This document shows positions 56,062-64,000 of a DNA stretch of 64,000 nucleotides, in pieces. A program made the translations under genes and the position numbers. Within the stretch, counting starts at the first letter, position 1. Every line of letters begins with the position of its first letter. The notes under the pieces were generated by a model. That model worked only from the letters and a program-made list of their open reading frames with translations, did no database searches and was not told the origin of the DNA. The stretch comes from Alphaproteobacteria bacterium (lineage in GTDB: Bacteria; Pseudomonadota; Alphaproteobacteria; Micavibrionales; Micavibrionaceae): contig JAUHWR010000001.1 in NCBI GenBank assembly GCA_030427385.1, forward strand, positions 806,001 through 870,000, in the 5' to 3' direction.

Positions 56062-56454
56062 TTAGTTCGTTGAACACTTGTATTTTCCCTTAGGTGTCTT
56101 TTCACAAGTATGACCTGATGATGCATTGTATGTAACATTGCAGTTGCTCTTTAGGTTATTCTTAGCAACATTGAGTGTTGTTCCCCATGCAGAGCAATTC
56201 TCACCTGTAGGGGGATCCTTATCATCGTCATCATTATTACCGCCCGAGCCATTTGTAGAACACATATATTTTCCTTTAGGTGTCTTTTCACAAGTATGGC
56301 CTGATGATGCATTGTATGTAACATTGCAGTTGCTCTTTAGGTTATTCTTAGCAACATTGAGTGTTGTTCCCCATGCAGAGCAATTCTCACCTGAAGGGGG
56401 ATCCTTATCATCGTCATCTCCACCTGCGATATTGTTAGTAAGTAATTTGCGCAT
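56062..56454 (-). CDS. Tandem Cys-rich repeat protein with possible GG leader
   Basis: Two copies of a module of about 46 residues (GENCSAWGTTLNVAKNNLKS, then three more cysteines) are joined by DDDDKDPP linkers. The ATG start gives MRKLLTNNIAGG before the first linker, which looks like the end of a double-glycine leader. The frame stays open 29 codons further upstream to a TAA at 56542-56544 (AIYAVTRKENLTADD), without a good start codon, so the 5' end may be truncated or non-ATG. Function unknown; a secreted or surface protein is inferred. Confidence 0.6.
   Translation of the reverse strand: MRKLLTNNIAGGDDDDKDPPSGENCSAWGTTLNVAKNNLKSNCNVTYNASSGHTCEKTPKGKYMCSTNGSGGNNDDDDKDPPTGENCSAWGTTLNVAKNNLKSNCNVTYNASSGHTCEKTPKGKYKCSTN
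56072..56418. repeat. Tandem duplication, 186-bp period
   Basis: Two copies of about 161 bases, 56072-56232 and 56258-56418, differ at about five positions. The 186-bp period equals 62 codons, so the frame is preserved. The near-identity suggests a recent duplication or homogenisation. Confidence 0.92.
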
Positions 56455-57644: not shown

Positions 57645-57821
57645 ACACGTTCAAACAGAATTAACAGGCCATAGGAATACGACCATACATTGAGAGATAA
57701 AGACTCTTACCTCCTATAGCGTACCTAGCGCAGAGTATGCGGTCAAGATAAGTTGATAGTGACTCGGAAAGTTATTTATCTTATAGTTATCATATCAAAC
57801 AAACGTCTGTCTGGAAGTTAT

Positions 57822-58286
57822 ATGAAACATGTCTTTTTCAATCTATTTTTTTTAGTTTTTTGCCTTTTTACAAATAATCTATCCGCCCAAACCATCGCAA
57901 CAACTCAACCTTTAGATTTTGGCACATCTGTTATTACTAATAATGATGCCCCTAGACAAATAACGGTCCAAACGAATGGGGCATATTTTTCAGATCCTGA
58001 ATTTTCAATCGTAATACCTCCGGTTCCAGGGAATTATTTACTAACAGATGCTGGGGCGCCATTTACACTTATAACTACGGTAAATATTACAGTGGATCAG
58101 CAAATGATTGGCGCAGGACAAGACTTTGTAATTGATAATTTTGATATTTCGCATCCCGGCTCAACGAATGGCGCCGGCGAATTACCGATCATTATAGGCG
58201 CGCGTTTAACTACGACCGGGTCTGGGATCGCCTATACACCAAATGAAACATTCACCTCATCAATGACACTTGATGTAATTTACTAA
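57822..58286 (+). CDS. DUF4402-like fimbrial subunit
   Basis: From MKHVFFNLF (57822) the product has 154 residues, with a signal peptide ending SAQTI. The mature part is beta-rich with the motif LDFGTSVITNN and ends in a strand LDVIY, as in DUF4402 and CU-type pilin subunits. GGAAG lies nine bases before the start. The chaperone gene follows after 13 bases. It is smaller than the second subunit at 59233-59829 and may be a tip or minor subunit. Confidence 0.72.
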   Translation: MKHVFFNLFFLVFCLFTNNLSAQTIATTQPLDFGTSVITNNDAPRQITVQTNGAYFSDPEFSIVIPPVPGNYLLTDAGAPFTLITTVNITVDQQMIGAGQDFVIDNFDISHPGSTNGAGELPIIIGARLTTTGSGIAYTPNETFTSSMTLDVIY

Positions 58287-58299
58287 TCTAGGAGAAAAC

Positions 58300-59154
58300 A
58301 TGAAAATACAAACATCGATACAAACCATTACTGGCGCATTTATTTTTATGGCGTTTATGGTGGGATTAAATCTTCCGCTGAATGCCAGCCTACTTATTAC
58401 CCCGCTTCAGGTTGTGATGGAAAATCGAAATCGATCTTCGGAAATTGTGCTTATTAACCCAAGTCGGAATACAAATACCTATCGTTTGGAGTGGGTTCAA
58501 TTAGAACAACAGGAAGGAAAGGGCGGGTATTACGAAGTTTCTCCGGATGATGTGAATAAAAAAATGTATTTGCAAGATTTTGCTGTTTATACACCGCGCC
58601 AAGTTACATTAAAGCCAAATGAAAAACAGACAGTGAGAATCGGAATTCGACGCCCTGCAGAATTGGCGGACGGTGAATATAAATCACATTTGAAATTCAA
58701 AATTTTACCGGATTTAAGTATTCGCCCGAAAGTTGATGTTAAGCCCGATCCAAATGCAACAAAACTGGGCGCAAGCGTGCATGCATCTTATTCGATTCCA
58801 ATTATTTATCGCGCTGGTGAGTATGATATTAATGTTGATATTAAGAAACCTACTTTTACAACAAACCCTTCAAACTCAAGAATCGTTGTTAATCTTCCGG
58901 TAAACAGATCAGGAATACACGGTGCCGTGGGTCAAATTAATATCTACTTCACACCATCAGGAGGCTCTGAAACTTTAATTGCTCAAAACGGTAATGCGAA
59001 TTTGTTCCCTGAAATTACAAGTCGCACATTTAATATTATTTCAACAGTCACTAGCTTAGGATCAGGTTCAATCCGCGTTCAGTATCTAAAGGCGGAAGGA
59101 AAAGACGCAACGAAATACCCAGTATTAGATGAGAAGACTTTCCCAATTAATTAA
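58300..59154 (+). CDS. PapD-like periplasmic fimbrial chaperone
   Basis: A 284-residue protein with a signal peptide (about 1-29) and two immunoglobulin-like domains. The motif PRQVTLKPNEKQTVRIGIRRP is the family signature, with hydrophobic strands for subunit donor-strand complementation. AGGAG lies eight bases before the ATG. The length and context identify a chaperone for the adjacent subunits. Confidence 0.88.
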   Translation: MKIQTSIQTITGAFIFMAFMVGLNLPLNASLLITPLQVVMENRNRSSEIVLINPSRNTNTYRLEWVQLEQQEGKGGYYEVSPDDVNKKMYLQDFAVYTPRQVTLKPNEKQTVRIGIRRPAELADGEYKSHLKFKILPDLSIRPKVDVKPDPNATKLGASVHASYSIPIIYRAGEYDINVDIKKPTFTTNPSNSRIVVNLPVNRSGIHGAVGQINIYFTPSGGSETLIAQNGNANLFPEITSRTFNIISTVTSLGSGSIRVQYLKAEGKDATKYPVLDEKTFPIN

Positions 59155-59180: not shown

Positions 59181-59208
59181 AAAAAGGGCGCTATTAGCGC
59201 CCTTTTTT
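59181..59208. terminator. Bidirectional terminator between chaperone and subunit genes
   Basis: GGGCGC/GCGCCC stem with a five-base loop, preceded by AAAAA and followed by TTTTTT. It serves the plus-strand chaperone gene and the convergent minus-strand subunit gene. Confidence 0.9.
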
Positions 59209-59232: not shown

Positions 59233-59829
59233 TTAGTATGCAAAATCAACCTGAATTGATGCATCTGTAAAAGGTGTCCCAGCAAGTGGTGTGTTCGGGA
59301 AAGTAATTGTTCCGCCGAAACCGATTGTTTCTGCAACACCAGCTGTTTGGATTTGAACAACAGTACCGTCATATGCTGCAGGAACCGCTGTATTTGCTGC
59401 GGGTGCAACAACAGAATCAGTATATGTCAACGCAGATAACGTAATGTTAGGGCTGGCAAAATCTGTAATTGCTCCTTGAAGCTGGACGTTCCCTGTAATA
59501 GGAGATGTCACATCAATTGTACCGCCGCCTGTTGATGGCGTTACATTCTGCAAGATGGTAGAAGCATCAACAACACCAGCAGGTGTAGGTGCAGTTGGAA
59601 CACCAGTATTTGGTTGTTGAACAAAACTTGGTGTATCACCACCAGCTACGTTAACGGCCCATGTTCCGAAGTCAATGTCATTACCTGCGGCTGCTGCAAG
59701 AGCAGGTGCTGTTGTAATGTTTCCTCCGATGGTCGCAGTCGCTTGAGCGTTCGCATGATTGACACCAAATCCTAGGGTCAAAGCCATGACGGTAGCTGTA
59801 GCTATCGTTTTTGTATTAAGCACTTTCAT
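59233..59829 (-). CDS. DUF4402-like fimbrial subunit (major candidate)
   Basis: A 198-residue exported protein with a signal peptide ending HANAQ. The Ala/Thr/Gly/Pro-rich, Cys-free, beta-rich mature domain has DFGTWAVNVAGGD and ends IQVDFAY. This matches DUF4402 subunits. AAGGAG lies nine bases before the ATG, a strong ribosome site. Low-complexity surface-protein composition fits a major pilin. It is transcribed opposite to the chaperone and usher. Confidence 0.8.
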   Translation of the reverse strand: MKVLNTKTIATATVMALTLGFGVNHANAQATATIGGNITTAPALAAAAGNDIDFGTWAVNVAGGDTPSFVQQPNTGVPTAPTPAGVVDASTILQNVTPSTGGGTIDVTSPITGNVQLQGAITDFASPNITLSALTYTDSVVAPAANTAVPAAYDGTVVQIQTAGVAETIGFGGTITFPNTPLAGTPFTDASIQVDFAY

Positions 59830-60088
59830 TAGGTTTCTCCTTAAAGTTAAGTTAAAGTGATAATTATTAGGCGGTCGAATAAAAAACCAAGTTAAGTGTA
59901 ATCTTAAATTACAACCAGATCAATAGTGATCCTATTTTGATAAAACCTTATAATCATTACCAAAACAACCTATAGCTCTATTATATTTAAAAATTAGTTA
60001 AAAAGTTATTTACATTGTGATTCTATTTTCTAGCGAAAGGTTAGGTTTTCTAAATTCTTTTTTGGAGATAGAATGAAATAATCATTAT

Positions 60089-60105
60089 TTGGCACAATCC
60101 TTGCT
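60089..60105 (+). promoter_or_regulatory. Sigma-54 promoter upstream of the usher-like gene
   Basis: TTGGCACAATCCTTGCT matches the RpoN consensus YTGGCAC-N5-TTGCW without a mismatch. GG (60091-60092) and GC (60103-60104) are 10 bases apart. It lies 44 bases before the ATG at 60149. The 319 bases from 59830 to 60148 hold no gene; upstream activator sites are not recognised. Sigma-54 control implies an enhancer-binding activator elsewhere. Confidence 0.8.
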
Positions 60106-60148
60106 GTTATCATGCCAAAAGTTATTCTCTATACGGTTCTTATTTCGA

Positions 60149-63100
60149 ATGAATTTTATGACGCAACGCAAAAGATATTACAGGCAAAGCATATGTTTTG
60201 TCTTTCTAATGCTGTTTTCTCTAATTTTTTCGACGAAATTATATGCTCAAAGCGAATCTCCGCCTCCCTCATTAATCAGTGAATTTTTGACCCGCATTGA
60301 AAAAGGCTTCAATGAAGCCGATGTTTTTATGGAAGAAACAGGGATTTTAGAGAAGCGGTTAGACTTACGTGGCCTACCGGACGGCGAAACCCTGATCTTT
60401 GATATTAGAATACCACCGCGATTGGAAGTGGAAGGGGTCGTGTTCGGAGAAATTTCAAATGAAACCGTATTAATCTCATTACGTGATTTTGTTAGCGTTT
60501 TACAATTTCCCATTAAATTTGATAGCGAAACAAATACTTTTTCAGGGTGGTTCCTTTTAGAAGGAAACACATTTCAGTTAAATTTGGACAATGAAATTTT
60601 ATATTCTGCGGGGCAAGAATATAAACGATCAAAAGATACCCATATAATTGAAGAGGATATTATGGTCCCCATTGGGGAAATAAAAGAGTGGTTTAACATG
60701 GGGGTCGAGGTGGACATTTCTGCCCAGAAGCTAATTTTAGATCCGGCCACGCCTTTTCCAGCGACACAACGATATAACAGGCGGAAAAAAGACTTTTCAA
60801 GTAGGGGCAATTCAAAACCGGAACTTCCTCTCATGGAAGACGATTATGATTTGTTTGAAGTACCCGTGGCAGATATCACCACCAGATCAAATTATAGGAA
60901 GAGAGAAAACGGTGATACCGAGTTCAATAATTTTGCCAATGTTCGTACAGCGGGTGAGTTTCTAAAAGGGAATCTCACAACAAATACCGCCATTAATGAT
61001 ACTGATGGTATTTTTAGCGCGCGTGTCACTTATCTCCAAGAATCTATTAAGCCCGAATTATTAGGCGGGTTAAAAGCGCGTCGTTTTGAAGTTGGTGACT
61101 TATCACCAACCAGAGTGCCCATTACCGGGAATTCCGGCCAAGAAACGGGGATTCGTATTACCAATGCAAACCCCCTTGTGAATCTAAGTTTGCCGTCCAC
61201 TCGTATTGAGGGATATTATTTTCCGAATTGGGATATTGAATTATATCGCGATAACTCACTCCTTTCTTTCCAAACGACTGATTCTGAAGGCTATTACGTA
61301 TTTGAAGATGTCCCGCTCTTTAGTGATAAAAACTTTTTCCGTGTTGTTGCCTATGGCCCGCAAGGGGAGATTCGCGAAGAAATACTCAATATACCCTATG
61401 ATCGTAATCAGGTTGCTGCCAATGGCGGTGTATATGACATTTCCGTTACTTTACAGGAGCGACAATTTTATAGCTTAAACGAATCTAGTGATGTTGATAA
61501 GAACTCCCCCCATGTCGTTGCGTTTTATGAAATACCTGTTTTAGATTCTAGCGCCCTTCGTCTTGGCGGGCGGTATCGTCAGGAGGAGGGGGAGAACAAA
61601 CTTTACGGCAGCGTAGGGCTATCAACATCCATTAATCAAACTCTGTTGAATGCTGATTTTGGTGCCGATGAACAGGGCGAGGCAAAAACCGAACTCTCCG
61701 CGACCAGAAACTTTGGACAGCACCGCACACGTGTTGATCTTGACTTGTCCACCGATAATTACAATCCGGGCGGGACATCAACCAACGTAAATGTTCTCTC
61801 CAATCGGTATAATATAGAGGGGCCTTTGGGTATTGGTGTAGGGATTAATCCACGTTATTCGGGTAATTTTCGTTATGATATGGATTCAAATAATAATGCA
61901 TCATCTACCGGTCAGGTAAATTTAAATACGCAATTTAACCGCTTATCTTTGAACCAAAGCTTTGATTATTTTGATAGTGATAAATCGGCCATCGGAACAG
62001 AATATGGCGGCACAACCGCGCTAACCGGATTCTATAAAAGCAGCTTGTTCCGCGCATTGGCAAGATATGATTTCAGTCCCGAAAGTGAATTAAGCTCTCT
62101 TTCCGCTTTTTGGAAATATCGTATAAATTCCGATTTTGATTCACAATTTCAAATTGATCACAGCTTTGATGATAATGAACTGACCAAATATTCAACACAA
62201 TTAAACTGGCGTTTGGATGAAGCTGTATTAACGCCGCGTGTCAGCTATGATTCGAGAGGCAATATAGAGGCGCTATTAAGCACCCGCTTTAGCGTAGCCC
62301 AAGAGCCTGTAAGTGGTGATTTCATCATGACCCGCGATAGTCTGACAGATTTTGGTAGCTTAAGTGCATTTGTTTACCTTGATAAGAACGGTAATTTTCA
62401 ATTTGATGAAGATGACGAGCCAATTGATCAGGCCAAAATTATTGCACCGCAAAATGGCGGCGGCGGGTTTACGGATAAAGATGGCGTCGCTTATTTAACG
62501 CGTTTCCGCCCCAGCTTGATTACAGATGTTTATCTTGATAATGCGAGTTTGGAAGACCCGTTCTGGATTTCAGCGAAAAAAGGACACTCAATTATGCCCC
62601 GCACAGGGAATCATTCTTATATGGAATTTCCTGTTCATATCTCCGGTGAGGTGGACGGGACAATTTATAAGAGAAATGCCGATCAAACATCGTCTCCTGC
62701 CCAGAATGTTTCCGTTGCCATTTTTAATATGCGCGGCGAAATGCATCAGCAAACGCTAACCAGCCCAGACGGCTTTTATCTTTTTTCACTTATCCCGCCG
62801 GGAAAATATTACTTGATGATAAATGATACAAGCATTTCCAAAGGCTATGGCCGGCCATTTCCTAAAATCATTGAAATTGGCTATGACGGAACCGTTCTTT
62901 ATTCACAGGATATTGTTTTAGAGGCCGGGCGTCCCGATGTGCCAATTAATATTAAAACAGTCAAAAGTAACGAGAATAATGCGGAACAAAAAATTACATT
63001 AAATTTGGGTGAGTTTAATTCACCGCTAATGTCCGCTTATACTTGGCACAAGCTTGTAAAAGATTTTAGCTATTATTTGGGCGGCGCACAGAGAATTAGT

Positions 63101-63244
63101 AATGAGAATGATCCTGTTTTAAGAGCATCTTTACCAGAAAATACGATGTCGGCAGGATATAATCGCTGTTCAGCACTTGTCAGAGGAGGCGCTTTCTGCG
63201 AAGTTGAAATAAATATTGCCGGAATTTCGGAGGAGCAAGACTAG
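60149..63244 (+). CDS. Usher-like outer-membrane protein with accessory domains
   Basis: From ATG 60149 (or 60158) the product is about 1031 residues with a signal peptide ending KLYAQ. The N-terminal domain (about 50-210) has a stalk-like repeat pattern (VLISLRDFVSVLQF and VPIGEIKEWFNM). Next come an usher-like plug/beta-barrel region (about 230-730, with short polar-hydrophobic strands), an SdrB-like module (FVYLDKNGNFQFDEDDEP) and a carboxypeptidase-regulatory-like module. The gene lies downstream of a sigma-54 promoter. Family is non-classical for fimbrial ushers; function as a secretion pore is inferred. Confidence 0.8.
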   Translation: MNFMTQRKRYYRQSICFVFLMLFSLIFSTKLYAQSESPPPSLISEFLTRIEKGFNEADVFMEETGILEKRLDLRGLPDGETLIFDIRIPPRLEVEGVVFGEISNETVLISLRDFVSVLQFPIKFDSETNTFSGWFLLEGNTFQLNLDNEILYSAGQEYKRSKDTHIIEEDIMVPIGEIKEWFNMGVEVDISAQKLILDPATPFPATQRYNRRKKDFSSRGNSKPELPLMEDDYDLFEVPVADITTRSNYRKRENGDTEFNNFANVRTAGEFLKGNLTTNTAINDTDGIFSARVTYLQESIKPELLGGLKARRFEVGDLSPTRVPITGNSGQETGIRITNANPLVNLSLPSTRIEGYYFPNWDIELYRDNSLLSFQTTDSEGYYVFEDVPLFSDKNFFRVVAYGPQGEIREEILNIPYDRNQVAANGGVYDISVTLQERQFYSLNESSDVDKNSPHVVAFYEIPVLDSSALRLGGRYRQEEGENKLYGSVGLSTSINQTLLNADFGADEQGEAKTELSATRNFGQHRTRVDLDLSTDNYNPGGTSTNVNVLSNRYNIEGPLGIGVGINPRYSGNFRYDMDSNNNASSTGQVNLNTQFNRLSLNQSFDYFDSDKSAIGTEYGGTTALTGFYKSSLFRALARYDFSPESELSSLSAFWKYRINSDFDSQFQIDHSFDDNELTKYSTQLNWRLDEAVLTPRVSYDSRGNIEALLSTRFSVAQEPVSGDFIMTRDSLTDFGSLSAFVYLDKNGNFQFDEDDEPIDQAKIIAPQNGGGGFTDKDGVAYLTRFRPSLITDVYLDNASLEDPFWISAKKGHSIMPRTGNHSYMEFPVHISGEVDGTIYKRNADQTSSPAQNVSVAIFNMRGEMHQQTLTSPDGFYLFSLIPPGKYYLMINDTSISKGYGRPFPKIIEIGYDGTVLYSQDIVLEAGRPDVPINIKTVKSNENNAEQKITLNLGEFNSPLMSAYTWHKLVKDFSYYLGGAQRISNENDPVLRASLPENTMSAGYNRCSALVRGGAFCEVEINIAGISEEQD

Positions 63245-63249
63245 ACATA

Positions 63250-64000
63250 ATGTACAATAATTATCTAACCTATACGGAAAACAAGTGGCAAGAGCTTTCC
63301 GAGTTAGCGCGCCAACAAACGTTGCTTTATGGATTTTATAATAAAAACTATCGTTTGGTTTATGAAACCAAAGGATTTTTGTTCCGTTTTCCCAAAAATG
63401 ATGAGAAGCAATTTGATCCTCGTCCCTTTTATGAAGTGGATGTTTATGAGGCCATCAAACCTTATGGATTTCCAACTCCAGCCTTATATCATGCCGCGCC
63501 GGATAGGTCATTTCAGGTTCATGAATATGTTGAAGGTGCCTTAGTTGATGAAATTTATCCGCCTGGGCAAAACCTTCCGGAAGATCATATTGATCAGATG
63601 ACGGCTTTTTATGCTCGTCTGGCTAATGCTGATATTGATATTTCAAAAATTATCGCGCCCGAATGGCCTCAAAAAGGCCCGCCTTTAACATTTTTTGAAA
63701 AGCTTTTGGAGCATGCATGGATAATTTATAGAAACCATCAGGAGACTCACAAAGATATCTATGATTTTTTAAAAATTCCGAGCGATCCTTTTTCTCATTT
63801 CCTGATCAGAGCCGGTTCTTTATCCCGCCGTCCATGGCGTTTAATTCACGCAAATATTCATCGTGGGAATATGATTGAAAAAGAAAACGGACAAATCATT
63901 ATAATTGACTGGGAACTCGCCCTATATGGCGACCTTCTTTACTGCATTGCGGCTTATCTACATAGAAGTCGTTTCGATGCAGATGAGAAAGAAAAAATTG
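63250..64000 (+). CDS. Aminoglycoside-phosphotransferase-fold protein (partial, runs off the right end)
   Basis: At least 250 residues from MYNNYLTYTE. The kinase-fold core has LIHANIHRGNMI, equivalent to the HxDxxxxN loop, and IIIDWELALYGD, equivalent to the DFG-like metal motif. The usual catalytic Asp in the first motif reads Asn (HAN rather than HGD or HAD). It may be a phosphotransferase for a choline, sugar or envelope substrate, or an inactive form. It starts five bases after the usher stop, and so probably belongs to the same transcript. Confidence 0.75.
   Translation, partial: MYNNYLTYTENKWQELSELARQQTLLYGFYNKNYRLVYETKGFLFRFPKNDEKQFDPRPFYEVDVYEAIKPYGFPTPALYHAAPDRSFQVHEYVEGALVDEIYPPGQNLPEDHIDQMTAFYARLANADIDISKIIAPEWPQKGPPLTFFEKLLEHAWIIYRNHQETHKDIYDFLKIPSDPFSHFLIRAGSLSRRPWRLIHANIHRGNMIEKENGQIIIIDWELALYGDLLYCIAAYLHRSRFDADEKEKI

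Follow-up and report, generated by a model that had tools for sequence, protein, structure and literature searches.

The RpoN (sigma-54) motif of Caulobacter is GGCNC-N4-CTTGC (PMC4287350), and the class III/IV flagellar promoters of this organism need sigma-54, IHF, and FlbD (PMC3096577). In a 2024 review of the regulation of type 1 and P pili, RpoN is not mentioned, and fimbriae and flagella are described as inversely regulated (PMC11316696). In Micavibrio aeruginosavorus, the flagellar genes are reported to be highly expressed during the attack phase and switched off during attachment; ushers are not mentioned in this genome paper (PMC3189940). No report of RpoN control of the usher family studied here was found in the full-text literature searched, nor did any paper there join DUF4402 with an usher, or an usher with RpoN, pili, and Bdellovibrio. 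Here, we describe a chaperone-usher locus of an alphaproteobacterium of the Micavibrionaceae in which sigma-54 control of the usher is well supported; the placement in the Micavibrionales/Micavibrionaceae is based on related contigs, which bear the labels Micavibrio or uncultured Alphaproteobacteria. The reading as a whole that we hold to be likely is that a functional sigma-54 promoter with a transcript start at about 60116 makes the usher and is activated by FlbD rather than NtrX, together with the late flagellar genes.

The window, i.e. the entire 64-kb stretch of DNA that was analyzed, carries a -24/-12 (sigma-54/RpoN) promoter element on the plus strand at positions 60089–60105 (TTGGCACAATCCTTGCT), assigned from the motif and its conservation within the genus. 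The sequence is a full match to YTGGCAC-N5-TTGCW at all 12 fixed positions and consists of TTGGCAC (60089–60095), the spacer AATCC (60096–60100), and TTGCT (60101–60105). Sigma-54 requires GG and GC to be 10 bases apart, and this is the distance from the GG at -24 to the GC at -12. The TTGGCAC-N5-TTGCT element with exact spacing that the first-pass annotation had described was thus confirmed in both letters and spacing. The exact pattern TGGCACN5TTGCW occurs only once in the window, at this position. Because matches with up to one mismatch were at chance level there (3 found versus 2.5 expected), the count within the window proves nothing, and it would suit a chance match, with the usher transcribed from an ordinary promoter. 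Such a match is difficult to reconcile with a genome of the same genus, where the motif was kept at the same place in 16 of 17 positions, whereas identity was 40% over the 65 nt before it and 44% over the 43 nt behind it. At the identity rate of the flanks, the probability of this conservation is ∼8.5e-6. Judged from the alignment, the motif appears as a conserved island between diverged flanks. Sigma-70-like matches for the usher promoter were not above chance, which also argues against an ordinary promoter.

The gene behind the element (60149–63244, plus strand), a divergent usher gene, encodes a protein that is 63% identical to the usher of the same-genus genome. No Pfam usher domain was found in the product, which carries Cu_amine_oxidN1-like and CarboxypepD_reg-like regions (Pfam). 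An AlphaFold model built from 26 homologues reached a pLDDT of 80.6, and its best solved match in Foldseek was FimD (3rfz, E = 6.7e-29), with PapC next. By this predicted structure the product has an outer-membrane usher fold with barrel and plug, so that the earlier label of an usher-like gene stood despite the missing Pfam domain. The stop-to-stop ORF of the first-pass annotation opens with TTG at 60089, on the promoter itself. Therefore, translation plausibly begins at ATG 60149 or ATG 60158, neither of which is preceded by a clear Shine-Dalgarno sequence. For the 60089–60105 promoter a transcript start at about 60116, some 12 nt past the GC, would be expected, which places the two ATG codons 33–42 nt downstream. 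Both the start codon and the transcript start are predictions. An APH/choline-kinase-like gene (63250–64000, plus strand, running off the window; Pfam APH, 1.5e-13) begins 5 nt past the usher and is possibly co-transcribed with it; the same gene order is seen in the same-genus genome.

The periplasmic chaperone gene (58300–59154, plus strand) was assigned from a structure model with a pLDDT of 87.2, for which Foldseek gave CsuC as the best match (6fq0, E = 1.9e-10), followed by PapD and other pilus chaperones. The model points to a PapD-like two-domain chaperone. The profile of this protein also matches Enterococcus faecium WxL-interacting proteins (E = 1.6e-4), which hints at a common fold. 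A DUF4402-type subunit gene (57813–58286, readable from 57753, plus strand) was recognized by its homologues, which adjoin the chaperone gene in relatives, and by Pfam DUF4402, with a score of 24.0 bits that is slightly below the cut-off of 25.2. Divergent from the usher lies a pilin-like subunit gene without Pfam match (59233–59829, minus strand), whose homologues occupy the corresponding position in many relatives. With the usher and the chaperone, these two genes complete a chaperone-usher set, and a fibre would be built by this pathway. A separate ORF of 130 aa (56062–56454, minus strand) consists of two near-identical cysteine-containing repeats, CSAWGTTLNVAKNNLKSNCNVTYNASSGHTCEKTPKGKY.

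A terminator-like hairpin (59181–59207, T-run scored on the minus strand) lies between the chaperone and pilin-like genes. Since the hairpin and the opposing gene separate the usher from the chaperone, the usher needs its own promoter. A search for a leader RNA with Rfam gave sub-threshold matches only, around the terminator. The intergenic region between pilin and usher genes contains a conserved block (59896–60023; 83% identity to the same-genus genome), which may serve the divergent pilin gene or the activator that acts on the usher promoter, or perhaps both. The CtrA-like sequence TTAA-N7-TTAA occurs in this intergenic region at 59987–60001, inside the block and kept in the same-genus genome, and at 59841–59855; CtrA is encoded in the genome (403.9 bits versus a cut-off of 350). 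As the block with its CtrA-like site could hold another promoter, RpoN might bind mainly as a regulator that, for example, blocks or times a promoter in 59896–60023 and is not the main source of usher transcripts. We consider this highly unlikely, given that the distance of the element to the start codon is promoter-like and that related ushers, in sequence surroundings unrelated to these, also have sites at the distance of a promoter. For the divergent pilin gene of the window, the best candidate sigma-54 site was rejected, as it matched only 9 of 12 positions and was not conserved.

In the complete 2.19-Mb genome, the exact sigma-54 pattern was found seven times, compared with no match for the reversed pattern. 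One RpoN is encoded, so the absence of an rpoN gene, which the first-pass annotation had named as speaking against its reading, does not apply. The six other exact sites precede flgK, flagellin, a flgN-like gene behind flgJ, and genes for a transglycosylase-like protein, a 195-aa protein of unknown function, and a DnaJ-like protein, with start codons 1–29 nt past the inferred transcript start; the flagellar names come from reading of the sequences and not from a family search. In several related genomes, exact sigma-54 sites are likewise found at apparent relatives of the transglycosylase-like gene. The one genome of the same genus has kept an exact site before flgK, the flgN-like gene, the gene of the 195-aa protein, and the usher. 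Because of the genes behind the other six exact sites, the RpoN site set of the genome is largely flagellar, and the usher is among its few apparently non-flagellar members.

Recurrence of the site was analyzed in the regions upstream of homologous ushers (125 non-redundant sequences, 78 kb), with expectations taken from Markov shuffles. Exact sense sites were present in 7 of the 125 regions (0.01 expected), with one antisense and no reversed match. They belong to the window, the same-genus relative, RYN_474 (L132), two Desulfobacteraceae (L138 and L141), G008, and G047. Sites with at least 11 of 12 positions numbered 11 of 125 (0.41 expected), the 11/12 cases being L122, L130, G012, and G062. 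In relatives with a callable start, the start codon was about 30–80 nt past the inferred transcript start. The test was designed after the first matches had been seen and the rows of kin are non-independent, but the margin is large. Compared with 7 sites per about 2,100 genes, the odds ratio is ∼18, a rough value because the gene count is estimated and rows are non-independent. The divergent pilin gene of one relative (L177/L235) carries a site; the exact antisense site, in G074, lies 39 nt (inferred start to ATG) before the divergent pilin-like gene.

The sites are scattered over the usher tree, in Micavibrionales and Desulfobacterota. On this tree, the distribution of the label "site before the usher" requires five changes or more, or seven with operon heads counted, and therefore repeated gains, losses, or transfer. 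A recognizable site is absent from most usher homologues, including the 20-member nearest sister clade, so the link between sigma-54 and usher is patchy. This patchiness is what a chance match would predict. The same promoter type, however, is met again ahead of related genes in distant bacteria, which makes chance unlikely as the source of the link, and with the strong enrichment before usher homologues added to the conserved island, a chance match is in our view very improbable. From these comparisons, sigma-54 control appears to be a recurrent feature of these ushers. The earlier remark that chaperone-usher genes are rarely linked to RpoN is corrected for this family, in which the present case is not a one-off, as the link recurs in more than one phylum. 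Based on the exact motif, the presence of rpoN, the same-genus conservation, and the recurrence, 60089–60105 is very probably a functional promoter.

A second usher subfamily (L228 4583, L229 3595, L233 4208, L234 4896) has a sigma-54 site between co-directional chaperone and usher genes, as if the usher alone had been placed under RpoN. The G008 usher of this subfamily (L229 3695–6667) may be broken, because its frame is split into two ORFs of 482 and 444 aa.

In the Gammaproteobacteria the usher is internal to an operon, and the sigma-54 sites are found at operon heads. At seven Pseudoalteromonas loci, the head gene encodes a lipoprotein, a SPOR protein in the single case tested, with sites of 10–12 of 12 positions located 25–28 nt ahead, and a FlgO-family gene with a 10/12 site follows the usher. 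In two other Gammaproteobacteria, the operon head is itself a FlgO-family gene, with an 11/12 site. At two loci flgT, with its own sigma-54 sites, is near the usher cluster. The flagellar association of the usher family is strongest in the Gammaproteobacteria, in part via lower-scoring sites. A flagellin gene of G035 (L084 4016–5637) with its own sigma-54 site lies ∼1.4 kb from the usher, and at the gammaproteobacterial loci L151 (9437–11427) and L139 (1373–3225) three FlgO-like lipoprotein genes each adjoin the usher operon, Pfam FlgO being detected in three of the six.

Sigma-54 holoenzyme needs an activator. The only strong sigma-54 activators in the genome are FlbD, which adjoins motA and whose best family, NF050807, was matched over the full length with 696 bits, below the curated cut-off of 750, and NtrX, with 617.6 bits versus a curated cut-off of 600. 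Of 11 relatives tested, 10 encode an FlbD-like protein of similar score; the same-genus genome, which is fragmented, yielded no full FlbD, perhaps owing to an assembly gap. As the sole other strong activator, and one above its cut-off, NtrX (of NtrY-NtrX) could drive a real sigma-54 promoter here, with the usher then responding to signals from nitrogen, redox state, or the envelope instead of flagellar assembly. We regard this as unlikely, because the genome's other exact sites are largely flagellar and FlgO-family genes occur in the site-bearing usher operons of Gammaproteobacteria. FlbD is thus preferred over NtrX because the sites of the genome are largely flagellar. The search for activator sites upstream of the promoter, suggested by the first-pass annotation, was performed and identified none; a gapped-dyad analysis of 38 promoters remained at background level with no enriched element. 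The IHF consensus WATCAAN4TTR had no match in 59800–60260, although degenerate sites may exist. The palindrome GATCAatagTGATC (59918–59931) was considered as an enhancer but rejected, because the same-genus genome has an altered right arm and no other copy in the genome falls on an exact sigma-54 site. In G012, an additional sigma-54 activator of the response-regulator type is encoded ∼4.5 kb past the usher (L228 12207–13737), and an exact sigma-54 site precedes the divergent neighboring genes; a third activator of similar kind is also present in G008, G047, and G062.

According to the FlbD reading, RpoN-RNA polymerase would form a closed complex at 60089–60105, and its opening would await a distantly bound AAA+ activator. 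This activator would hardly be other than FlbD or NtrX, with FlbD, the flagellar activator, the likelier one, so that the usher pore would be made together with the late flagellar genes. The transcript from about 60116 would encode the usher and perhaps also the kinase-like gene behind it, and the subunit and chaperone genes would use other promoters. The motif, its conservation, rpoN, the activators, and the recurrence are taken from sequence, and the usher and chaperone folds from predicted structure; from these we infer the transcript start, the identity of the activator, the timing, and the fibre itself. The first-pass annotation had placed surface assembly under an enhancer-activated programme, perhaps flagellar or cell cycle. 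The sigma-54 promoter, rpoN, the flagellar co-sites, FlbD and NtrX, and CtrA agree with such a programme; the flagellar or cell cycle link is the best current inference, and coupling of the usher to the flagellum is plausible. Among Micavibrio relatives, motile attack cells must attach to prey, and the usher is a concrete gene for attachment tests.

The locus shares the promoter type with the Caulobacter class III/IV flagellar promoters, and here too an FlbD-type activator, located beside motA, is present together with CtrA in an alphaproteobacterial host. In contrast to these promoters, the target is an usher and not a flagellar part, and no FlbD (ftr) or IHF site was identified. As in archaic chaperone-usher pili of the Csu type, the chaperone model is nearest to CsuC and the usher model has an usher fold. 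The usher differs from the Csu type by the lack of a Pfam usher domain and by its Cu_amine_oxidN1-like and CarboxypepD_reg-like regions, the subunits are DUF4402-type or unassigned, and the promoter is sigma-54 dependent by prediction. Among solved ushers, FimD and PapC of the enterobacterial type 1 and P pili come closest to the model, but co-regulation with flagella is proposed here. In the well-studied enterobacteria fimbriae are made when motility is off, and an usher family brought repeatedly under the enhancer-dependent flagellar sigma factor would mean a fibre of the motile cell. It is possible, if doubtful, that a widespread divergent chaperone-usher pathway of Micavibrionales, Gammaproteobacteria, and Desulfobacterota, generally expressed along with the flagellum by way of sigma-54 and in some versions carrying FlgO/SPOR lipoproteins, makes a structure that is linked to the assembly of the flagellum or of the motile cell, opposite to the enterobacterial switch between fimbria and flagellum.
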